Of a stretch of 25,709 nucleotides of DNA, positions 1,869 to 21,025 are shown piece by piece. The notes below the pieces were generated by a model. That model made no database searches and was not told the origin of the DNA. It was given only the letters and a program-made list of their open reading frames with translations. Position numbers and translations under genes: made by a program. The number at the start of each line of letters is the position of its first letter. Position 1 is the stretch's first letter. Source of the DNA: a virus; the IMG/VR virus record IMGVR_UViG_3300021467_000021, positions 1 through 25,709 of that record; one strand, written 5' to 3'.

Positions 1869-2411
1869 TCACGGATTTGCCTCAAAAAACGCCTGGGCAA
1901 AAGCAGGCGGGGTTATAGCACGTGTAACTCCACCATCATTCGGCATATTGTTAATCTTTTGTAACAGCGCCGGCGGTTCTGTGTATTTACGCTTCGGCTC
2001 ATTGAAATAGCCCCATAGGTCTGTCGGCTTACTAATATTATCGCCAAATTCCCAATAGCGAACAGTCATTGATGGTTTGCCTAAGAATTGACGCAAAAAA
2101 CCTCTCGGATTCTCTAAGCACCAAAAAGCTAAAGGTGCTTGGAACCGGCATTTCCAAATAATATGGAGACAGGCCTCAACGATTTCCATTCCCAAACGAA
2201 AATTGCGAGGTGCACTTCCCTTAGCAAGGCTAAACTCAGTACAAGGTGGGGCGGCCAAAATACCGTAAACGTTTTCGGGTGGTTCGTAATCACGTACATC
2301 ATACTCTGGCAGCGTAATAAGTCTCACGTCGTACCCGTGTTCTGCATAGGGACGCGACCACGCCCCTGTCCCGCCGCATAAATCAAGGATTATTTTATTT
2401 TTATTCGTCAT
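1869..2411 (-). CDS. Short C5-cytosine methyltransferase-like protein
   Basis: 180 residues from ATG 2411, which overlaps the upstream stop; an in-frame ATG at 2435 lacks a ribosome site. It has a SAM-binding motif I (ILDLCGGTGAW, residues 8-18), a Pro-Pro-Cys motif IV (APPCTEFS, Cys57 as candidate nucleophile) and the Glu-Asn-Pro motif VI (CLENPRG, residues 99-104). SKPTDLWGYF near 128-137 is common in phage members. There is no room for a normal target-recognition domain (full C5 enzymes exceed 300 residues). It may need a partner, recognise a minimal site, or act in another modification. Confidence 0.65.
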   Translation of the reverse strand: MTNKNKIILDLCGGTGAWSRPYAEHGYDVRLITLPEYDVRDYEPPENVYGILAAPPCTEFSLAKGSAPRNFRLGMEIVEACLHIIWKCRFQAPLAFWCLENPRGFLRQFLGKPSMTVRYWEFGDNISKPTDLWGYFNEPKRKYTEPPALLQKINNMPNDGGVTRAITPPAFAQAFFEANP

Positions 2412-2598
2412 CTGCGTACTTTTTTGCCATATCATTAGCGGCCCCTTTCAATTTTTTCATCTTCTGTTCAAATTCTTCTTTACTAATCTTACCAAACGCC
2501 AGGTCAAAACGCAAGGAGTATTCTTCATCAGAAATAAATCGAGGGCGTGGCAGGTCGCCCTTGCCGGCAGATGATTTATGCTTGGCTTTCTCTGTCAT
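2401..2598 (-). CDS. Small charged protein, family shared with 1721-1861
   Basis: 65 residues with a Lys-rich N-terminus, the core RFISDEEYSLRFDLAFGKI and a Lys/Glu-rich helical tail. AGAGGA lies about 6 nt before ATG 2598. It overlaps the upstream zinc-binding gene by 23 nt and the methyltransferase-like gene by 11 nt, so translation is probably coupled. I do not recognise the family. The core is duplicated in the 46-residue protein on the other side of the methyltransferase-like gene. Confidence 0.6.
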   Translation of the reverse strand: MTEKAKHKSSAGKGDLPRPRFISDEEYSLRFDLAFGKISKEEFEQKMKKLKGAANDMAKKYADDE

Positions 2599-6154: not shown

Positions 6155-6910
6155 TTAATCGTCAAGACCTTTAATTGTCGGTTCTGGCCCATCTAAATCG
6201 GCACTTACGGAACCGTCGTTAGGGATAGAAACATCTTCTACAGGTATTCTGTCAATCACAGTAGCAACAGACTCCATCCGAGTAGGTAGCTTGCCAAACT
6301 CCTCTATGATTTTGTGTTCTAATAGGCCCATCTCTACTTTTTGCCCGCTTGTTTTAGCAAGCTCAGAATACGTATCAAAAAGCGTCTTCATAACCGCCTT
6401 AGTGCCTGCTGGCTTTGCTTGTTTAACAACCGGAGCTTTATCTTGTTCGCCCCCATACTTCTTAGATAGCTCTGCAACATATCTACTATCATCAAATTTC
6501 CCCTCGAATACATCAGAATTAAATCCCAATCTTGACAGAGCCTTTGTAATACAGTCTGTCTGCAATTTCTTGAAACACTCATCGTTGGGGCGGTACGGCA
6601 TATCAGATGCTATAGGAAATTGCCCATCAGGATAATAAAATTCTCCTACTAAAGAAATGCCTACTATTTTACCAGCAGGCTGTTCATAAATATAGTTAAA
6701 TCCTAAAGAGCGAAGGCCCCACTTATTTCCAAACGGCCCCCATAATTCGGTAGCTCTCTTAATCTGCGACTGAGCATCAATAGCAGTGAAGCCGCCTCGC
6801 TGATTTACCCGCTTGGTGATAGCAGGGTTCGTTTCACATACTTGATTCCATAACTCCATATTATTATTCTCCGGCGGTCTGGCTTTTGTAGCTTTCTTTG
6901 CTTTTGCCAT
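6155..6910 (-). CDS. ssDNA-annealing recombinase, ERF/Rad52-like
   Basis: 251 residues. A basic N-terminus leads into GGFTAIDAQSQIKRATELWG, then LVGEFYYPDG, then QTDCITKALSRLGFNSDVFE and GKFDDSRYV. This order of motifs, especially the Q-T-D-x-x-T-K-A-L-x-x-L-G-F helix, is typical of phage single-strand annealing proteins of the ERF/Rad52/DUF1071 group. The C-terminus is an acidic tail ending near PEPTIKGLDD. It should pair with the nuclease at 7145-8014 and SSB in strand-annealing recombination. A GGAG embedded in the end of the upstream gene precedes ATG 6910. Confidence 0.75.
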   Translation of the reverse strand: MAKAKKATKARPPENNNMELWNQVCETNPAITKRVNQRGGFTAIDAQSQIKRATELWGPFGNKWGLRSLGFNYIYEQPAGKIVGISLVGEFYYPDGQFPIASDMPYRPNDECFKKLQTDCITKALSRLGFNSDVFEGKFDDSRYVAELSKKYGGEQDKAPVVKQAKPAGTKAVMKTLFDTYSELAKTSGQKVEMGLLEHKIIEEFGKLPTRMESVATVIDRIPVEDVSIPNDGSVSADLDGPEPTIKGLDD

Positions 6911-8249: not shown

Positions 8250-9203
8250 TTAACACAAATCGTCAACAAACATCAAATCCTCACAATCAACTCTACTACA
8301 ACAAACGCTACAACGTCCGCTCTCGTTTAAGACCGTATTGCAGCCACAAATAGGGCAAACGATAGTCTTATTCCGTATAATGTTCCAGCAAGAATGGCAA
8401 TAAAATGTCCCGTAAGATACATACTTGCCCTCGTTGTGTTTATACTTGCTACCGCAAAAACTACATACAGAGTAATACGACGCTTTGGCTCTCTCTCTTA
8501 TAGCACACGTTTCACACATCCAACCACTAATAACAAAATCCCATCTTAGTTCTGAAAGTGGAAACGATAGACCACAAATCTCACATCGCCCTTGATACTT
8601 TGAAATGTACACATTCTTCCCATAATCGTAGGTTGTTTCTATATCATAATTATCATAGTTTGTCCACTTCCATATCATATTGCTAAACCATATCCCGTCT
8701 TCCCACACTCCGCCGCCCTCATTAAGCAGTGTAACCTTTCCTTTATTATCCATAAACGCCAACTTAGAACTTGTTTCTTTACACCATTTTTCTAATTCAT
8801 TCTTTATCTCCTCATTTTTAAGGAAATTTTCTGGCAAGCATTGTAAGATTGTTCGATTAAACTCCTGCGTATCCGATTCAGCATCGCTTCCCATTTTCGG
8901 AAAAACTCCATTATGAGCAAATGCCAGATTCTCATTCACATAAAACGGGTGGCATTTATCCGCACTCACTCCGCCGCTTGTTGCAAGGCGGAAATGCAGC
9001 AAAATATTAGCCTCAGGATAAGTACGCTCTATCTTGCGAAAATATCTATAGAGCCTACGAAACCCAAAATAGCCACGAGATACATATAGCCTGTTATTAA
9101 CTGCAAAGGCCATACCGGCCCCGTCGTCGTTAGTCTTATAACACGCCTTCAACATCCGACGTGTTATTGTAGTTCCGGCAGGTTTGTAAACTATCACACA
9201 CAT
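8250..9203 (-). CDS. Class II glutamine amidotransferase with zinc-ribbon tail
   Basis: 317 residues. N-terminal Ntn-hydrolase domain: catalytic Cys2 (MCVIVYKP), NDDGAGMAF (25-33), LHFRLAT with R72, CHPF and AHNGVF (96-101), the usual glutamine-binding set of YafJ/PurF-type amidotransferases. These hydrolyse glutamine and pass ammonia to a partner. From about residue 205 three C-x2-C pairs of pairs follow: 207/210 with 230/233, 247/250 with 269/272, 283/286 with 298/301. Such a zinc tail is not part of the standard enzyme. The start overlaps the end of the amidoligase gene by 10 nt, implying coupled synthesis. Confidence 0.82.
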   Translation of the reverse strand: MCVIVYKPAGTTITRRMLKACYKTNDDGAGMAFAVNNRLYVSRGYFGFRRLYRYFRKIERTYPEANILLHFRLATSGGVSADKCHPFYVNENLAFAHNGVFPKMGSDAESDTQEFNRTILQCLPENFLKNEEIKNELEKWCKETSSKLAFMDNKGKVTLLNEGGGVWEDGIWFSNMIWKWTNYDNYDIETTYDYGKNVYISKYQGRCEICGLSFPLSELRWDFVISGWMCETCAIRERAKASYYSVCSFCGSKYKHNEGKYVSYGTFYCHSCWNIIRNKTIVCPICGCNTVLNESGRCSVCCSRVDCEDLMFVDDLC

Positions 9204-10135
9204 TCAGTAATTATCTCCTCAAATAAAGGTTTTTGATTAACTATAAATCGCCACAAATTTGGATAAGACTTCTTTTGTGGCAACAGCCAATTCATAAAAT
9301 CTTCGTGCACCATCTGTTCTAATGGTGCGTTCATTGAAAAATCATAAAGGGCCTTTGTAAACTCAACATTTTTCCAAAAACTACTCGGATTTAATGTACC
9401 TCTAAAAATTCGCAGTTCAACAGTAAACCCACGACACAAATTAACTGCTGCGTGGTGCGTTTCATAATCAGAACCGCCAGCAAAAACCCAACCTTTAATA
9501 GTATTATTAGAGTAACATCTCTTCGCCCACTGTTCTAATGTTTTTGGAATTCTCTGACTCATCCATAAAATAAAGCTGCTATTGTGGCGATTATAAATAA
9601 ACTGCATAAACTTATACAAATGGTAACACCCGAATGCCCGCTTTGATAAATGTATATGCATCCCACACGTACCGACATCATAGCTTCTAAACCCAGCTCT
9701 TACTAAATCAAAGACAGGCAACCACTTTTCTTTATTTTCCATCAGCCAGGCCCAGGATAAAGGGTGCGATACTAACTCTACACCAAATCTTAAACTGCTA
9801 TCATATTTGAAGTATAGCCAATTCGGCAATTTTCTCAGACGTTTAACGACTTTATCTTGCACGGCTTTGCTTGTAGCCGCCTCTATCGGCATCTCGACTT
9901 CAAGCTCAATGCCAAAAAATAATTTTCTCTTTGTTCTTTTCTCTTGTTTTGTCTGATAAAAATGCCAGCACGGCTCATACGCATACTCTTGTATCAGCTC
10001 AGGGTCAATATCTCTTGGGTGCTCTATTACGTGGAAATCTGGGCATTGCTCTTCAATAGAAGTTCCGCCCGTAGCAGACCACACATGCACCGGACTATTA
10101 GGTAACCATCCGTATTCTTGATTATTATCTGGCAT
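9194..10135 (-). CDS. Amidoligase (COOH-NH2 ligase, glutamine-synthetase-like fold), copy A
   Basis: 313 residues from ATG 10135, chosen for GGGGAG 4 nt upstream over an in-frame start at 10168. Motifs of the amidoligase family (PF12224): FFGIELEVE (73-81), FGVELVSHP with E120, TCGMHIHLS (156-164), and TVELRIFRGT with R242 and R245. These acidic, His and Arg residues bind ATP-metal and substrate in the glutamine-synthetase fold. The family forms amide or peptide bonds. Glutamine amidotransferase follows in the same operon, and a second copy lies upstream. Substrate unknown. Confidence 0.82.
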   Translation of the reverse strand: MPDNNQEYGWLPNSPVHVWSATGGTSIEEQCPDFHVIEHPRDIDPELIQEYAYEPCWHFYQTKQEKRTKRKLFFGIELEVEMPIEAATSKAVQDKVVKRLRKLPNWLYFKYDSSLRFGVELVSHPLSWAWLMENKEKWLPVFDLVRAGFRSYDVGTCGMHIHLSKRAFGCYHLYKFMQFIYNRHNSSFILWMSQRIPKTLEQWAKRCYSNNTIKGWVFAGGSDYETHHAAVNLCRGFTVELRIFRGTLNPSSFWKNVEFTKALYDFSMNAPLEQMVHEDFMNWLLPQKKSYPNLWRFIVNQKPLFEEIITECV

Positions 10136-10145
10136 CGTTCTCCCC

Positions 10146-10424
10146 TTATAGCTCCACAAGACTCTCACCGAACATCTTTAATCTTGTTTCTCTGTCATAA
10201 TTCTGAAACGACTCTTCGTCATTAAACGGCACAGGATTTGAGTAAAAGGTTTTTGCAAATCTATGCGTTAAGTGGACTAATCTTTGTATTTCCTTTTCCG
10301 ACAAACATTCTCGTATATCCGTATCGTCCTTAACTTCAATTCCATATACCCATTTTAGAATATCTCTGCTATGCCCAACCACATCTATAATCTGTAAACC
10401 AATGGCCTGTTTTGATTCATTCAT
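10146..10424 (-). CDS. Small unknown protein, paralogue of upstream gene
   Basis: 92 residues. The segment ILKWVYGIEVKDDTDI followed by LSEKEIQRLVHLTH closely matches MLRWVYGVEIKDDADI and LSKKEIRKLIRLVP in the gene at 10426-10770. The start lies 1 nt after that gene's stop (TAA-A-ATG), with the GGAG inside its last codons. Predicted all-helical. It sits in front of amidoligase A and could be a small partner, but no function is recognisable. Confidence 0.65.
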   Translation of the reverse strand: MNESKQAIGLQIIDVVGHSRDILKWVYGIEVKDDTDIRECLSEKEIQRLVHLTHRFAKTFYSNPVPFNDEESFQNYDRETRLKMFGESLVEL

Positions 10425-10425
10425 T

Positions 10426-10770
10426 TTATTTCTCCATAGGTACTAAACGAATCAATTTTCGTATCTCTTTTTTTGACAAATGTTTTAATATATCTGCATC
10501 ATCTTTAATTTCAACCCCATATACCCATCTTAACATTTCCTTTGCCCAATTTCCCCAACTACCCAGAAACGGCATTTGGCTATTGGCTTCAAATTCCTCT
10601 TGGCAAACAGTAGTAGAATACGCATCACCTAAATTGATATACTTTAATTCATATCTATCGCAACTAATATACTCAACGCCGTGCCCATTCAATAACTTAT
10701 TAGCTGCATCCCACTCGCCCTCTTCAGCTAATTTCAACGCCTTTTGTAGTTTTTCTGTTGCTTTGTTCAT
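10426..10770 (-). CDS. Small unknown protein, first gene of the amidoligase A unit
   Basis: 114 residues from ATG 10770 (AAAGGGG about 8 nt upstream). An in-frame start at 10806 would add 12 residues but has its ribosome site touching the ATG. The N-terminal third is a helix with TPR-like spacing (NKATEKLQKALKLAEEGEWD), the middle is unique, and the C-terminus shares the WVYGVEIKDD module with the next gene. It follows promoter 10833-10860 directly. Confidence 0.65.
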   Translation of the reverse strand: MNKATEKLQKALKLAEEGEWDAANKLLNGHGVEYISCDRYELKYINLGDAYSTTVCQEEFEANSQMPFLGSWGNWAKEMLRWVYGVEIKDDADILKHLSKKEIRKLIRLVPMEK

Positions 10771-10797
10771 TTCATTTTCCCCTTTAATGGAAGTCCG

Positions 10798-10817
10798 AAA
10801 AAGCATCCTTGCCTAAC
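10798..10817 (-). repeat. Leader repeat, copy 1
   Basis: Leftward reading GTTAGGCAAGGATGCTTTTT, identical to 12272-12291, and both copies are preceded by AATAGGA. It lies in the 5' leader behind promoter 10833-10860 and contains AAGGATG. It may be a short regulatory leader shared by two transcription units. Confidence 0.6.
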
Positions 10818-10832
10818 CCCTGTCCTATTTAT

Positions 10833-10860
10833 AGTATAACACATTTTCAAGAAAATGCAA
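10833..10860 (-). promoter_or_regulatory. Promoter of the amidoligase A / replication unit
   Basis: Leftward -35 TTGCAT (10860-10855), 16-nt spacer, -10 TATACT (10838-10833). The same form recurs at 12119, 13880 and, with a 17-nt spacer, 15304, each just before a gene or gene group. Confidence 0.65.
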
Positions 10861-10871
10861 GTACTTTTTTG

Positions 10872-10896
10872 AAAAAAGTTAGCATTGGCTTCTAAC
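10872..10896 (-). terminator. Candidate terminator after amidoligase B
   Basis: Leftward GTTAG-AAGCCAATG-CTAAC followed at once by six T. The stem is only 5 bp and overlaps the gene's last codons and stop, so it may be weak. A promoter starts 12 bp further on, which fits a unit boundary. Confidence 0.45.
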
Positions 10897-12075
10897 TATT
10901 TGTCGCTCACTCACTGGCTTTTCTCTAAACTCTTCAACGATGTTAGGTTCGACTAATTTTAGAAGCCGCTCCGGTTGACGCCATAGCCAGTAGTAAAGAT
11001 TTTCATATCGGTCTTTATGCTCTTTGATAAAAAGCAAAAACTCCGGCAATGGTCTACCGCTTTTTTTCGTAAACTGATAAAGAGCTTCTACATACTCAAC
11101 ATTTTTCCAAAAACTCTCCGGCAATAATGTCCCCCGAAAAATCCTAATCTCAATCGTTTCAAAGTTCTGTGTATTCACCGCCGTATATCGGCTATGCGGC
11201 TCACCATCATACACTTTGGCTCTAATTTCTGCACTATCAGAATCTAATTTTGCCCAACACCTTAACTGGCCCGAAGTACGCTCCGAAATTAGCTTTGTAA
11301 ACTCCGGCCACAAATAAACGGCCCGCATAAACCTATACAAATGTATTTTAGTGCGAAACGCTTTTCTTGATATATGTATGTGCATTCCACAACTATCTGT
11401 ATCATAGCTCCGCAAACCATAGTCGGCTAAATCAAAGATTTGTTGCCATTTATCTTGATTGGCCTTCAACCATTCAAACGTGGCCGGTTGAGATACGATT
11501 TCCACTCCGAATGAAACATCACAATTATCATAAATGCTCGTATCCGGTTGAGTATAAAAATAGTCATATGGTATCTCGGCCAAAATGTTATTAAACTCAT
11601 ACACATCATCTATATCGTCCCTAAACACTCCGCACTCCAATTCTATCCCGTAGTATTTTGCTGCGGGCCGCCCTTTATAGTGCTGGAAAAATTCAAATAT
11701 TCCAAAAAAGTCGTCCCGATATTCGATATTCTCCCGCTGCTCCTCAATATCTGCTTCTCTTATATTATTGTAGCAGTATTCGCAATAGTCGTCCATTGCT
11801 TCATTAAGGTGAACAAATTCACCACATTCGGCACACGTGATATAATAATCTTCGTAACATCCTTCGCACAAATGAAGGCCACGCACATCAAAAACCATAT
11901 CGTCCTTAAAATAAACTCCCCCGCACTCATAACAGAGCAGGCATTCGTCATAGTGTTCCGCTTCACATCGCGGGCATAATCTTATCGTCTGCGTATAGTG
12001 CCCACTTGCAATATAATCCTCTATTGCAAACGATTGAACCGATTCATCATATCGCCCACATATTTCGCACTGCAT
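10879..12075 (-). CDS. Amidoligase with N-terminal zinc ribbons, copy B
   Basis: 398 residues. The first 101 residues hold six C-x2-C pairs (3/6, 34/37, 48/51, 70/73, 81/84, 98/101), giving about three zinc ribbons. The amidoligase domain follows: YYGIELECG (141-149), FGVEIVSQP, SCGMHIHIS (228-236), and EIRIFRGT (309-316) then SFWKNVEY. The catalytic half clearly shares ancestry with copy A (both have SYD...CGMHIH and RIFRGTL...SFWKNVE). The zinc ribbons may bind nucleic acid or a partner, as in the zinc-tailed amidotransferase. It has its own promoter at 12119-12146. Confidence 0.82.
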   Translation of the reverse strand: MQCEICGRYDESVQSFAIEDYIASGHYTQTIRLCPRCEAEHYDECLLCYECGGVYFKDDMVFDVRGLHLCEGCYEDYYITCAECGEFVHLNEAMDDYCEYCYNNIREADIEEQRENIEYRDDFFGIFEFFQHYKGRPAAKYYGIELECGVFRDDIDDVYEFNNILAEIPYDYFYTQPDTSIYDNCDVSFGVEIVSQPATFEWLKANQDKWQQIFDLADYGLRSYDTDSCGMHIHISRKAFRTKIHLYRFMRAVYLWPEFTKLISERTSGQLRCWAKLDSDSAEIRAKVYDGEPHSRYTAVNTQNFETIEIRIFRGTLLPESFWKNVEYVEALYQFTKKSGRPLPEFLLFIKEHKDRYENLYYWLWRQPERLLKLVEPNIVEEFREKPVSERQIVRSQC

Positions 12076-15783: not shown

Positions 15784-16455
15784 ATGGGCAAAAGAGCGAG
15801 CAAAAAAGAGGCAGAGGAAGCCAAACGCACAAAAATTGACTACGGTTTGACTCCGCCGAAGACTATTACCAATAAATTGCACGATAAATATATGGAACTG
15901 TACAAGGACGAGTATGCCGAAATGGCGTCGAGGCTGGTCGCTGCCGGATTCAGTGAGAAGGATTTGGCCTATACGTTCGGAGTGCCCGAAAACTGCATCA
16001 AAAGTTGGAAAAGACATATCCCGCAGTTTAAGATAGCCCTCACGGATGGAAAAAGACGTGAGAAGTGTAAGCTCGTGGCCAAGGCCCTTCTCGCTGCCGT
16101 AGGATATGATTACGAGTCTTCCAAGACCAGAATTCAGAAAGACCCCGATGGGACTATCTTAAAGATTGAGGAGACAAAATTTCGTAACCATCAGCCCCCG
16201 AACCACCAATTATTGATGTTCTTGCTAACCAACCTGTCCTATCAGCTCAAGGATGGGCCGGAAGAGAAGTGGCAAGGGCGGCAGAAAGTAGAACTTGAGG
16301 ATAATAAGAAAGTCTCAGTAAAGATAGATGGTAAGCTGGCGAGCGACGAAATCAGGGATTTGGCTGGTCGGCTGCTGACAGAGGCTCGTTCCGGTAAGGC
16401 CGCCTCGATTATGACGACTGCTCAGACGCTTGAGGCACTAACTGAAGATGACTAA
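15784..16455 (+). CDS. Small terminase subunit (TerS)
   Basis: 223 residues. An HTH lies in AGFSEKDLAYTFGVPENCIKSW (about 54-75), followed by RHIPQFKIALTDGKR, the DNA-recognition pattern of phage small terminases. The C-terminal third is charged (oligomerisation and TerL contact in known cases). It overlaps the next gene by 8 nt. It should recognise the packaging site and recruit the large subunit. The ribosome site is modest (AGG, 7 nt upstream). Confidence 0.75.
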   Translation: MGKRASKKEAEEAKRTKIDYGLTPPKTITNKLHDKYMELYKDEYAEMASRLVAAGFSEKDLAYTFGVPENCIKSWKRHIPQFKIALTDGKRREKCKLVAKALLAAVGYDYESSKTRIQKDPDGTILKIEETKFRNHQPPNHQLLMFLLTNLSYQLKDGPEEKWQGRQKVELEDNKKVSVKIDGKLASDEIRDLAGRLLTEARSGKAASIMTTAQTLEALTEDD

Positions 16456-17395
16456 ACTTTCTAAAGTAATTACAACTCCAGAGGATTTTTTAGAGCAGGT
16501 CCCGCACGACCCTGTAAAAAATATTCGGTTTAGGCAGAAAATTCACGCGAAGTTGGCGGAAGACCCTGTGGCCCAGAAGGAGTTTTTGGAACTATGTTAT
16601 GCTCAGCCGCAGATTGCTTTCGATACCTGCTTTTTTACATATGACCCGCGACAGCCGGTAGGATACCGAAATCGGCCGTTTATCCTGAGGCCACAGCAGC
16701 GGAAATTCGTCGATGCTCTCAAGGATGCGATTGATAATAAGCACGACCTGATTGCCGACAAGAGCCGAGAGGAAGGGGCGACCGAGGTCATTTGTAAGAT
16801 GTTCGCCCTGTACTGGATGTTGGTTCCAGATATGTCTTTTTTGGTCGGCAGTCGTAAGGAGGACCTGGTCGATAATGCGGTCGATTATAAGCACGGAAGA
16901 TTGTTGGGTGCTCATCAGAGCCTGTTTCACAAGATAATGTATGCTATTGTGAACTCGCCGGTATGGATGCGGCCCGCGTTTAATAAGAAGCACTTGTTTT
17001 TGCAGAATCTGGATAATAATTCGATGATTGAGGGCGAGAGCACAAACGAGTCATTTGGTGCTGGTAACAGGGCGTCGGCGGTTCTTATAGACGAGTTAGC
17101 CAGGGTCGAACCTGAAGTGGCCGAGCATATTGTAGAGAACATCCACGATACGTCGCCGACGGTTATCTACAACTCGACTCACTTTCGTTGGGGCGCGAGC
17201 CACGTTTATAGCAAGTTGTTGAGGAGCAATAAGGTTCCAGTAGTAACGTTGGGTTATGAGGATAATCCCGAAAAGAATGTTGGGGCCTACTATAGCCCTA
17301 TTGAGGACGTAGTTGAAATAATTGATGTTGATTATTATAAAAAGCACTATCCTGAGATATTTCAGTACGCAGAAAATTATAAAGAGACAGAGTAG
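16448..17395 (+). CDS. Large terminase, ATPase half
   Basis: 315 residues. Motor motifs: a variant Walker A ADKSREEGAT (103-112), Walker B SAVLIDELARVE (D215, E216), and coupling motif VIYNSTHF (239-246). This half powers DNA translocation into the prohead. The frame stops at TAG 17393-17395, exactly where the nuclease half starts, so TerL is encoded as two proteins. A single-chain TerL is usual (450-600 residues); the halves together have 675. Confidence 0.85.
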   Translation: MTKLSKVITTPEDFLEQVPHDPVKNIRFRQKIHAKLAEDPVAQKEFLELCYAQPQIAFDTCFFTYDPRQPVGYRNRPFILRPQQRKFVDALKDAIDNKHDLIADKSREEGATEVICKMFALYWMLVPDMSFLVGSRKEDLVDNAVDYKHGRLLGAHQSLFHKIMYAIVNSPVWMRPAFNKKHLFLQNLDNNSMIEGESTNESFGAGNRASAVLIDELARVEPEVAEHIVENIHDTSPTVIYNSTHFRWGASHVYSKLLRSNKVPVVTLGYEDNPEKNVGAYYSPIEDVVEIIDVDYYKKHYPEIFQYAENYKETE

Positions 17396-18477
17396 TGTAT
17401 ATTCCAGAGTGTTTTAGACATCATAAGCCCGTTGTGATTCGCCGCGATAGTCTGCCCGAAGAATTCCACGATTTATTTGTTTGGGATGGCGGGGCCGGTA
17501 ACTGGGGCCGTATGCGGTCTATCTGGTTCGATAACGAGGAAAGACGTGGCCGTTCTAAAATAGACATTGCTCAGAATATTTTACGTATTCCGCAGGCTTC
17601 CTCAGAGCAGTTTTTTGATTATGAAGTGTTGCAAAAAATACGAGCCAAGTATCTGAGGAAGCCCAACTATAAAGGCAAAATACAATTTGAAAACATAGGT
17701 GGAGTTTTTCATAACATTAAGTTTTTGCCAAAGGAATCTGGAAATGTCTTGAAGTGGTGGGGGTCTCTCCCAAACAAAGCACATAATTATATTGTGGCGT
17801 GTGATATATCGCGTGGCACTGGGGCATCTAATTCGGTGCTGACTATCTGCGATGTAAATAAACACGAACTTGTTGGCATATACGCTGACCCCTACATTGA
17901 TGTTCCAGATTTCGCAGAGATGGCCGTAGCTACGTGTAAATGGCTTGGCGATGCTTATTTGATTTGGGAAGCTAACGGACCTGGCGATACCTTTGATAAG
18001 ACGGTTTGGAAACTCGGATACAACAAAGTTTATTTCAATGTTAACGAACGTAAGATGGTTCGTAAACGCGGGTTGAATCGCGGATGGCGTAGCACGCCAG
18101 GGCCGAACGGCTCCAAAATGATGCTTCTTGATAGGCTGGATTCGGCTCTTGCAGAAAGCCTAAAACCGGAACGATATTATAACTATTTGGTTATTCACGA
18201 CGAAGCCTTGCTCAATGAGCTGGAAGATTATATCTTTATTCCTGGTCGCATTGATGCTGGCCTAAGCAACTCGGTTTTGGACGAAAGCGGTGCTCGTTAT
18301 GCTCACGGTGATAGAGTAATTGCAACCGGTCTCTGCGTTCTTGCTATGGTAGAAGTGAGGCCCGCAGATTTGCGTAGAGAAAAAGAGCCGCCGCCAGAAT
18401 CTTTTGAGGCCAGGTTTAGAAAATGGCAAGCTGAGCAAGAGAATATAAAACGAACAATGAGGCGATTTAGATATTGA
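17395..18477 (+). CDS. Large terminase, nuclease half
   Basis: 360 residues starting at GTG 17395, sharing its first base with the upstream TAG (TAGTG). RNase H-like nuclease motifs: D137 in IVACDISRGTG, E192 in LIWEANGPGD, D306 in YAHGDRVIA. These bind the metals that cut concatemeric DNA. The linker with RRGRSKIDIAQN is also normal TerL sequence, so only the chain is broken. No separate ribosome site is obvious; restart after termination is likely. Confidence 0.85.
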   Translation: MYIPECFRHHKPVVIRRDSLPEEFHDLFVWDGGAGNWGRMRSIWFDNEERRGRSKIDIAQNILRIPQASSEQFFDYEVLQKIRAKYLRKPNYKGKIQFENIGGVFHNIKFLPKESGNVLKWWGSLPNKAHNYIVACDISRGTGASNSVLTICDVNKHELVGIYADPYIDVPDFAEMAVATCKWLGDAYLIWEANGPGDTFDKTVWKLGYNKVYFNVNERKMVRKRGLNRGWRSTPGPNGSKMMLLDRLDSALAESLKPERYYNYLVIHDEALLNELEDYIFIPGRIDAGLSNSVLDESGARYAHGDRVIATGLCVLAMVEVRPADLRREKEPPPESFEARFRKWQAEQENIKRTMRRFRY

Positions 18478-18485
18478 GGACAAAA

Positions 18486-20288
18486 GTGGCAGACTTAAAA
18501 ACCCAAAGTAAAAAATTAAAGTTTCCGCGTAGGTTGCAGCTTATTTGTAAAGCGTGGAGACGCTTACAGGAGCCGGTGCTGAAGCATCGACAAAAACTGA
18601 TACAGGCGTATGCTGCTGGTTATTATACGCCAGGATTTCACCCGTTTCATACTATAAACTTGATAGGTCGAGGAGTCGATAGTATTGTACCGTTTTTGGT
18701 TGAGGGCGACCCCAAGTTTATGGTAGAAACTAAAATAGCCAACTTTCGTCATTGGGCTTATGTAACACAGTTGGCTATAAACCACTATATTGAGCATCTG
18801 AAGTTGGCCGAGAACGTACTGATTCCTGCCGCTGTAGCGTCAATGTTTGGTGCTGCTATCACCAGAACGATGTTAACGCATAGCGGGAACATTAGACTCG
18901 AAGAAGGCGGAGTCATAAAAACGGGTGTTCCGTCTGTTACTGTAATTGACGAGGCGAACTATATTGGGGACCCAGCCGCTAAGCGGCGAGCCGACTTTAC
19001 TTTGGAAGGCGACATATATCGGCTACCGACAGATTATGCAAAAGACTTTTTTGCGGGAAAAGATAAGTGGGGAAACCAGATAGCCGATTACATTACTCCT
19101 GATGGCAAGATGATTCAGGACTACTCGCCAGAGGAGGTTACGAAACACAATTTTGATAGAAGTAGGCTTGGCCTTCGAGATTATACGACCTTTATTGATT
19201 TGTATTTGTATGATGAGAATGTTATTGTTACGATAATGCCAGAAGGCAAAAAGGCTAAGATACTTCGTACTATCGAGTGGACTGGCCCAGAAGGCGGCCC
19301 ATACGACTATCTTGGTTATAGATTTTTACCGGAAACGCCAACGCCGCTACCGCCTGCTTGGTCTTGGCACGACCTTGATGTAACAATGAACATATTGTTT
19401 GATAAAGCCAGAGAGCAGGCGGAGAATCAGAAGAAAATTTTGGCTTATGAGTCTGCTGCCGAGGGCGACGCCAAACGCATCACTCAGACGCCGAATATGG
19501 GCACTGTGCGAGTAGATAACATACAGTCGTTAAAAGAGATTGAGTACGGCGGCGTCAACCCCTCGAACTTGCAATGGATGGCGTTTGCCGAGGCAGAGTT
19601 TACGAAACAAGGCGGCAATCCAGACGTGCTTGGTGGTCGCGGAGTGCAGGCCCCGACGTTGGGACAAGAGCAGCTTGTGTTTAATAATGCTACGCGAATC
19701 ATTCGCAATATGGCATCGAGATTTGATTCGTTCGTAACTTCGATTGTGAAAAAGCTCGCGTGGGATTTCTGGTATAACCCGTTAACGTATGTGCCCGTGC
19801 TTCGGGATATTTATGGTTATGGGCAAATGCCAGCAGTATTCTCAAGTTCTCGGAAGGTGGGCGAGTTTAATGACTTTGTCTTTAAGCTCATACCTTACTC
19901 GATGCAGCGAGAATCGCCAGAAATTAAGTACCAGAAGCTAATGAGCTTTATGACATCGTGGGTGTTACCATCTATGTCGATGGCTGCACAGCAAGGGGCG
20001 GTTGTGGATGTTCCTACTGCAACCAGAATTCTTGCCGAATATGCAGGGCTTGACAACTTTAATCAGATATATGAGACTGCGGTTCCTCACGAGTTAGCAC
20101 AATTTCCATATACAATGCAGCCTATAAGAACGCCAGCCAGTGCTGGAAAAATAAAGAAATCAGCTCAAACGAATGACCAGTTTGGGGCAACTGAAATAAG
20201 TCGTTTGGCTAATTTAGAACAGCAGCAGCGTAGGGCTGGTGGACAGCCAAGTCCGCCCCACTATGAAGGAGAAAGGGTGTTAGAATGA
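18486..20288 (+). CDS. Portal protein
   Basis: About 600 residues. GTG 18486 is preferred over TTG 18474 because GAGGA sits 5 nt before it. The gene follows terminase directly, which is the standard place for the portal. Mixed strands and helices, with a long C-terminal helical region (FNNATRIIRNMASRFDSFVT, then AWDFWYNP), fit a dodecameric portal that attaches the packaging motor. The last 50 residues are polar and Gln-rich. Family assignment rests on order and size more than on a strict motif. Confidence 0.7.
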   Translation: MADLKTQSKKLKFPRRLQLICKAWRRLQEPVLKHRQKLIQAYAAGYYTPGFHPFHTINLIGRGVDSIVPFLVEGDPKFMVETKIANFRHWAYVTQLAINHYIEHLKLAENVLIPAAVASMFGAAITRTMLTHSGNIRLEEGGVIKTGVPSVTVIDEANYIGDPAAKRRADFTLEGDIYRLPTDYAKDFFAGKDKWGNQIADYITPDGKMIQDYSPEEVTKHNFDRSRLGLRDYTTFIDLYLYDENVIVTIMPEGKKAKILRTIEWTGPEGGPYDYLGYRFLPETPTPLPPAWSWHDLDVTMNILFDKAREQAENQKKILAYESAAEGDAKRITQTPNMGTVRVDNIQSLKEIEYGGVNPSNLQWMAFAEAEFTKQGGNPDVLGGRGVQAPTLGQEQLVFNNATRIIRNMASRFDSFVTSIVKKLAWDFWYNPLTYVPVLRDIYGYGQMPAVFSSSRKVGEFNDFVFKLIPYSMQRESPEIKYQKLMSFMTSWVLPSMSMAAQQGAVVDVPTATRILAEYAGLDNFNQIYETAVPHELAQFPYTMQPIRTPASAGKIKKSAQTNDQFGATEISRLANLEQQQRRAGGQPSPPHYEGERVLE

Positions 20289-21025
20289 GAGACGACGACC
20301 TTGTGTATAGAACCAAGACAGACGACAAGAAAGCGGAAAAGGCAGTTAGAATATCATACAATAAGAGAATGTTTTTTGTATGGCTGGCTTTGTTTATAAT
20401 TTGCTACTTGGTGTTTGCTATAACTGGGCCTTCTAAAGAAGTAGTTGAAGCGAAATTTCTTACAAGTTTAGTTAATAGTACAGCAAAAATAGTAGTTGAA
20501 ACGGATTATGCCGGATGGGAAGGTACTGGCGTTTTCATTAAAGACGACTTAATTTTGACTGCTGGGCACGTAGTTGATGGAGCCGCAGCTATTACTGTTA
20601 TATTGGCAGATGGAAGTAAATATGAGGCCATAGATTGGTATAAAGAAAGTGAAGCAGACTTAGGTTTTATTGAAGTTAAGACAGAACGTAAAGAAGACAT
20701 TGTACAATTTGATGATGCCGTCCTCGGAGAAGCAGTTTGGGCCATCGGTAATCCGTTTGCTGTCTATCCAGTGGTTAGCAAAGGCATTGTTTGTGCTGTA
20801 GATATGCCCGATATTTATATGCATCAAAAGGATATGATTATTGTTGATGCAGCTATAAATCCAGGAAACTCTGGTGGGCCAATTTATGATGCCGAAGGAA
20901 AAATACTTGGTATTTGTAGCTGGGGATTTAATGGACAAGGAATGTCTTATTTTGTTCGTGGAGAAGTTTGTAAACTTTCGTTAGCTAAATTTTTGGCGAT
21001 AAAAGCATTGGAAGAGGTAAAATAA
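20285..21025 (+). CDS. Membrane-anchored trypsin-like serine protease (HtrA fold)
   Basis: 246 residues. A single N-terminal span (VWLALFIICYLVFAI, about 30-44) precedes an S1C-type domain. The triad reads H in LTAGHVV, D in SEADLGFI, and S in NPGNSGGPI. There is no PDZ domain. The ATG overlaps the portal stop (ATGA). Phage head proteases are normally of other folds (S78, ClpP-like, U9), so this placement is unusual. It may mature head proteins at the membrane, or act on host proteins. Confidence 0.8.
   Translation: MRDDDLVYRTKTDDKKAEKAVRISYNKRMFFVWLALFIICYLVFAITGPSKEVVEAKFLTSLVNSTAKIVVETDYAGWEGTGVFIKDDLILTAGHVVDGAAAITVILADGSKYEAIDWYKESEADLGFIEVKTERKEDIVQFDDAVLGEAVWAIGNPFAVYPVVSKGIVCAVDMPDIYMHQKDMIIVDAAINPGNSGGPIYDAEGKILGICSWGFNGQGMSYFVRGEVCKLSLAKFLAIKALEEVK

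Follow-up and report, generated by a model that had tools for sequence, protein, structure and literature searches.

A phage cassette of two predicted amidoligases and a class II glutamine amidotransferase with zinc ribbons on both partners

Pairs of an amidoligase and a glutamine amidotransferase (GAT) are already known from phages, and a role in the cell wall has been proposed for them. For phiEco32- and RIO-1-type cassettes, which contain amidoligases and a GAT, the hypothesis is that peptidoglycan is modified against superinfection (PMC5498523, PMC10580990, PMC11318856). Here such a cassette was analysed in IMGVR_UViG_3300021467_000021, a complete IMG/VR record from a virus of bacteria; the record is a linear fragment of 25,709 bases and is referred to as the window. 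The cassette consists of two amidoligase genes (copy B and copy A), a class II GAT gene and two small helper genes. Among the described systems, mycobacteriophage Marvin has a PF12224-type ligase followed by a class II GAT (gp105-gp106), with CxxC motifs at the N-terminus of the ligase and the C-terminus of the GAT as in the window. Unlike the window, it has a single ligase and fewer zinc motifs, at 25-30% identity. In the Methylophilales phages MEP401 and MEP402 (gp05-06 and gp06-07), the pair has been reported as PF12224 plus PF13522 (PMC10580990). As in the window, it lies just upstream of primase and helicase and the two genes overlap by 10 nucleotides (nt), but the one ligase has a single CxxC pair and the GAT has no CxxC.

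The phiEco32/RIO-1/LUZ24 cassette resembles the present one in that amidoligases occur with a class II GAT in an operon of the phage, amid genes of DNA metabolism, but it adds GGCT, ATP-grasp and COOH-NH2 ligase proteins and its ligase is distant (StenR_269, 47 bits). GGCT (PF06094) and PF14395 were searched for and found absent in the record, a fragment, and in its close relatives, and no ATP-grasp was seen in general Pfam scans of the main genes of the window. This counts against membership in the phiEco32/RIO-1 cassette type, not against a similar action. The seven-gene phiEco32/RIO-1 cassette is a distant relative of the window cassette. Among host enzymes, AsnB/LtsA carries out glutamine-dependent peptidoglycan amidation. 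MurT-GatD also amidates peptidoglycan (PMC3267633). Both resemble the proposed activity of the phage pair, glutamine-dependent carboxylate amidation by a ligase and a glutaminase, but they have unrelated ligase folds and belong to the host.

All genes lie on the minus strand where a first-pass annotation of the window had placed them, and the annotation proved right in its motifs and coordinates, in the overlap and in its count of zinc ribbons. Its two paralogous amidoligases both contain GIELE, CGMHIH and RIFRGT. In the hidden Markov model (HMM) check, copy B scored above the PF12224 cut-off of 22 bits, whereas copy A taken singly fell just under it; in the family alignment all 63 members, copy A included, matched PF12224 at E<=0.001. 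The catalytic acids, histidines and arginines (GxExE, D.S, E, H.H, R, E.R) are invariant in 63/63 family members. An AlphaFold2 (AF2) model of copy B was obtained with a predicted local distance difference test score (pLDDT) of 87.7. Its Foldseek neighbours are the YbdK-type 1tt4, glutamine synthetase (GS), gamma-glutamylmethylamide synthetase and the Pup enzymes PafA/Dop. As modelled, copy B has a GS-type (amidoligase) fold, in line with the annotation. Copy A has no zinc ribbons; its KxDxS motif is canonical and its catalytic residues are intact.

The GAT starts with MC and contains HFRLATSG, CHPF, HNG and SDT; R72, N98, G99 and D111 are conserved along with the MC start. Alone, it scored 1 bit under the curated PF13230 cut-off of 23, and with the profile of the GAT family, GlmS and PurF are hit at 1e-9 to 1e-7. 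In the AF2 model the N-terminal nucleophile (Ntn) domain has a pLDDT >90, and Foldseek returned the GlmS glutaminase, EgtC and PurF. The N-terminal cysteine, the glutamine-site residues and the GlmS/EgtC-type Ntn fold of the model bear out the class II GAT assignment.

Scans of viral contigs with each single window protein gave no matches, the window being too divergent from its relatives, so that alignments were needed as queries. Alignment-based scans, together with tblastn against named phages, yielded 157 amidoligase loci, 85 after dereplication at 70% identity; the ligase family was present in at least 578 confirmed stretches of one IMG/VR scan. The relatives keep the genes together: a GAT lies <=1 kb from the amidoligase in 84/85 dereplicated loci. 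In 80 of the 85 it adjoins the ligase, nearly always directly downstream (75 loci by script, plus L004 by its annotation). A reciprocal, GAT-first scan was carried out with a four-row GAT alignment, two broader alignments being too diverse, and an amidoligase was found by HMM in 63/80 loci. Eight exceptions were inspected by eye; in every one, what lies upstream is apparently an amidoligase that has diverged but keeps the order of motifs. The 10-nt overlap between copy A and the GAT, located behind GAGGAGATAA, is real and recurs at the same place in MEP401 and MEP402. Amidoligase and GAT divergence are correlated (r 0.78, 0/1000 permutations), and neighbour clustering revealed no other gene comparably constant beside the two. 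Because the linkage is near-constant, the overlap recurs and no other neighbour is comparably constant, the gene arrangement indicates that ligase and GAT form a functional unit. No natural ligase-GAT fusion was found among >230 loci.

Ligase-GAT pairs were also seen in contigs of Clostridia metagenome-assembled genomes (MAGs; L158:4727-6799 and L159:7701-9411), where the GAT shows only weak similarity to that of the phages (77-80 bits) and the pairs, by eye, adjoin integrase- and transposase-like genes, not phage structural genes. In a contig of a Lokiarchaeota MAG (L155, JAHPYZ010000033.1), a split terminase, a ligase-GAT pair, an exonuclease, a single-stranded DNA-binding protein (SSB) and a helicase are ordered as in the window. 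An archaeal host, considered from this contig, is possible but the less probable reading: the gene content is that of a usual phage contig, in synteny with the window, and the contig was likely misbinned, so that the archaeal assignment was given no weight.

The CxxC pairs of the three ribbons at the N-terminus of copy B and the three at the C-terminus of the GAT were confirmed. In copy B, the ribbon 2 family columns C48, C51, C70 and C73 are at least 90% conserved. The sample for the zinc count was 78 dereplicated loci having both genes (L095 in this count is the same contig as L014). At least four N-terminal CxxC are present in the ligases of 61/78 loci and at least two C-terminal CxxC in the GATs of 53/78; 48/78 have zinc motifs on both partners. 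Among the 191 other open reading frames (ORFs) of 240-550 amino acids (aa) in these loci, none reaches four CxxC, so the zinc motifs are not due to chance. Ligase zinc and GAT zinc are associated (Fisher p 2.6e-4, phylogeny not corrected for), and their CxxC counts do not correlate significantly by rank (0.14, p 0.22). The annotation had implied that zinc ribbons on both partners are rare. This did not hold: since the 48 loci and the named phage Marvin carry motifs on both partners, the arms appear from the motif counts to be a general trait of the family, not peculiar to the window. The literature searched, which did not include Iyer et al. 2009, gave no description of zinc arms present on both partners. 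In place of such arrays, some ligases have a long stretch at the N-terminus that contains no cysteine pairs. The N-terminal ligase arrays resemble LIM and zinc-ribbon modules; PF00412 (LIM) was matched at E<=0.001 in 6/63 relatives, not in copy B itself, where DZR reached 17.8 bits, under the cut-off. In one locus (L065:5590-6837) the amidoligase N-terminus is a dense cysteine repeat, with 27 overlapping CxxC in ~145 residues (e.g. CDSCGQCFNCC), which differs from the ribbons of its relatives.

The gene order copy B, copy A, GAT is common to the window and three relatives (L014, L017 and L100). Copy B and the first ligases of L014 and L017 form one clade in a 59-row tree without L100 (99/95), and one clade with the first ligases of L014, L017 and L100 in a 29-row tree that includes it (100/96). 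Copy A groups with the second ligases in the 59-row tree (99/88) and is not resolved in the 29-row tree. These trees place copy B as an old, separate paralogue, a point missed by the first-pass annotation, as was its altered active-site loop. The KxDxS lysine is absent in 4/4 copy-B orthologues and present in 57/63 aligned members and 168/180 other copies. The spacing from D.S to the catalytic Glu is 10-11 residues in the orthologues, where 5 is usual, and all remaining catalytic residues are kept in 4/4. GATs with at least six CxxC (three ribbons) occur, among the dereplicated loci, only in the four copy-B phages. These phages are probably one clade and so represent one evolutionary event at most. 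Independent ligase duplications are present in L046 and L047, and L096 has two entire ligase-GAT cassettes. That ligase duplication and enlargement of the GAT tail went together, with the three-ribbon tail as a scaffold through which one ammonia source serves two amidoligases making two amides, is a speculative and rather improbable proposal; if true, the phage would make two different amides using one glutaminase. For the copy-B variant, in which one ligase and the GAT have three ribbons each, no description was found in the literature searched, which did not include Iyer et al. 2009.

The earlier reading thus holds for the modelled amidoligase fold, the class II GAT, the tight and conserved coupling and the real zinc ribbons on both partners. 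The cassette is probably a glutamine-dependent amide-forming enzyme, a reading that leads because this is how class II GATs and GS-fold carboxylate-amine ligases are known to work. The GAT would split glutamine via Cys2 and release ammonia. The GS-fold amidoligase, with ATP, would convert a carboxylate into an acyl phosphate, and attack by ammonia would yield the carboxamide. Copy A, whose translation is coupled to that of the GAT, would be the canonical ligase, and the gene coupling suggests a complex of the two. Copy B would be a long-kept paralogue whose altered active-site loop probably accommodates a different substrate, be it carboxylate or amine. For the zinc ribbons, docking of proteins is the most likely role: as arms, they would join ligase to GAT and/or grip the target. 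Several observations weigh against this proposal. In a C. difficile phage, the sole exception among the 85 loci, the ligase has no recognisable GAT nearby, so GAT-derived ammonia is not obligatory everywhere. Amidoligase divergence also tracks the terminase (r 0.90), and the correlation with the GAT is therefore partly due to shared phage descent. The Foldseek TM-scores of copy B to solved GS-fold enzymes are modest (0.3-0.4) and support the superfamily but not any substrate. Since class II GAT folds include EgtC, a hydrolase, the role of the GAT might be to cleave a gamma-glutamyl amide and not to supply ammonia.

No reported substrate for the ligase-GAT pair was found in the literature searched. 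Two candidates for the target lead: a stem peptide of the cell envelope, which is what has been suggested for phiEco32 and RIO-1, and a host protein. Amidation of the peptidoglycan stem-peptide carboxylate (cf. MurT-GatD, AsnB/LtsA), blocking superinfecting phages or lysins, is possible, though it can be put forward tentatively at best. It agrees with the cell-wall proposal for the cassettes cited above and with the occurrence of the pair in phages whose hosts are widely different bacteria (Mycobacterium, Methylophilales, Acinetobacter) that all possess peptidoglycan, but the other parts of those cassettes did not turn up here or in close relatives, and zinc-ribbon arrays are unexpected for enzymes of small cell-wall precursors. 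Such arrays would suit a protein substrate, being matched by LIM and zinc-ribbon protein-binding families: the arms would bind a host or phage protein, e.g. RNA polymerase or a replication factor, and the ligase would amidate a Glu, Asp or C-terminal carboxylate. The GS-fold neighbours of copy B include the protein ligase PafA, and Dop, and the genes appear to head an operon with recombination and replication genes. No target was seen, however, and the LIM-like modules may serve only the assembly of amidoligase and GAT; this reading is somewhat doubtful. Whichever target applies, copy B could instead be a catalytically dead regulator of copy A, as the lost KxDxS lysine and lengthened loop in all four orthologues might indicate, but with GxExE, D.S, E, H.H, R and E.R kept this is unlikely.

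Synthesis of a small molecule or peptide metabolite is decidedly unlikely, as neighbour clustering showed no other biosynthetic gene recurring beside the pair. A DNA base, which the annotation had listed among possible substrates, found no support and is very improbable. Replication genes are near, and the record has a cluster of MazZ-like dATP/dGTP diphosphohydrolase (PF18909, 117 bits), nucleoside deoxyribosyltransferase-like and DNA-methyltransferase-like genes (1393-1737, 969-1469 and 1869-2435 (-)), but PF18909 was found in just 8/20 related records, and no base-modification neighbour recurs. A link to Z-genomes (2-aminoadenine), prompted by the MazZ-like gene, was rejected: the PurZ family (PF00709) is absent from the record and 19 relatives. 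A defence-system reading was also rejected, there being no PADLOC model match.

The features of the cassette are listed in the table. For copy A, the most likely start, judged from a ribosome site (AGGGGAG) ahead of it, is ATG 10135 rather than GTG 10168.

Table. Positions of the cassette genes and their sequence features in the window
Feature	Position	Strand	Remarks
Class II GAT, 317 aa	8250..9203	-	PF13230 22.0 bits; Cys2 nucleophile (predicted); three C-terminal zinc ribbons
GAT zinc ribbon 1, residues 207-233	8505..8585	-	CxxC 207/230; C207, C210, C230, C233 conserved in relatives
GAT zinc ribbon 2, residues 247-272	8388..8465	-	CxxC 247/269
GAT zinc ribbon 3, residues 283-301	8301..8357	-	CxxC 283/298
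Copy A stop/GAT start overlap, 10 nt	9194..9203	-	ATGTGTGTGA
Amidoligase copy A, 313 aa from ATG (324 aa if GTG 10168)	9194..10135	-	PHROG 16683 E 8e-24; PF12224 19.9 bits
Copy A RIFRGT	9395..9412	-	
Copy A CGMHIH	9650..9667	-	
Small helper gene 2, 92 aa	10146..10424	-	resembles L100 small ORF
Small helper gene 1, 126 aa	10426..10806	-	paralogue of helper 2
Amidoligase copy B, 398 aa	10879..12075	-	PF12224 25.4 bits; three zinc ribbons plus predicted GS-type ligase domain
Copy B RIFRGT, residues 311-316	11128..11145	-	R311, F313 invariant in 63/63
Copy B CGMHIH, residues 229-234	11374..11391	-	G, H, H invariant in 63/63
Copy B active-site loop, residues 176-192	11500..11550	-	near-invariant Lys replaced by Gln; D.S-to-E spacer 11, usual 5
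Copy B zinc ribbon 3, residues 81-101	11773..11835	-	CxxC at 81 and 98
Copy B zinc ribbon 2, residues 48-73	11857..11934	-	CxxC at 48 and 70
Copy B zinc ribbon 1, residues 3-37	11965..12069	-	CxxC at 3 and 34

The two helpers are paralogous as annotated (51% identity over 35 aa, E 1e-12). Their inclusion in the set is weakly supported, by a counterpart of one helper in one relative: helper 2 resembles an ORF of 70 aa that L100 has between its amidoligases (L100:5333-5545, phmmer E 0.0012). The E-value from an HMM for this ORF is circular and was disregarded. Pfam and PHROG scans of helper 1 gave no family at E<=0.01. In the direction of transcription, the minus-strand genes copy B, the two small genes, copy A and the GAT are followed, among others, by an 83-aa gene, an exonuclease (PHROG 2139) and a protein (6155-6910) matching phage PHROGs annotated as exonuclease. 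Next in this order are genes for an SSB-like protein, judged from sequence, a DnaB-type helicase and a Toprim primase. Elsewhere in the window, TerL is apparently split. ORFs 16448-17395 (+) and 17395-18477 (+) meet at one base; the first matches TerL proteins and the second part of cyanophage gp17 TerL. The halves are also separate in L155 (1637-2713 and 2700-3623, -), and both match single ORFs of L024 (639 aa) and L048. A trypsin-like protease (20285-21025 (+); PF13365, 88 bits), probably a head-maturation protease, is encoded among the rightward genes past the terminase.

The wide retention of the ligase-GAT pair in phages whose hosts are unrelated suggests that these hosts share the target. 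With its two genes, the form in the cultivable phages Marvin and MEP401 makes a minimal system for testing, and a natural comparison of two specificities would come from the copy-B variant.

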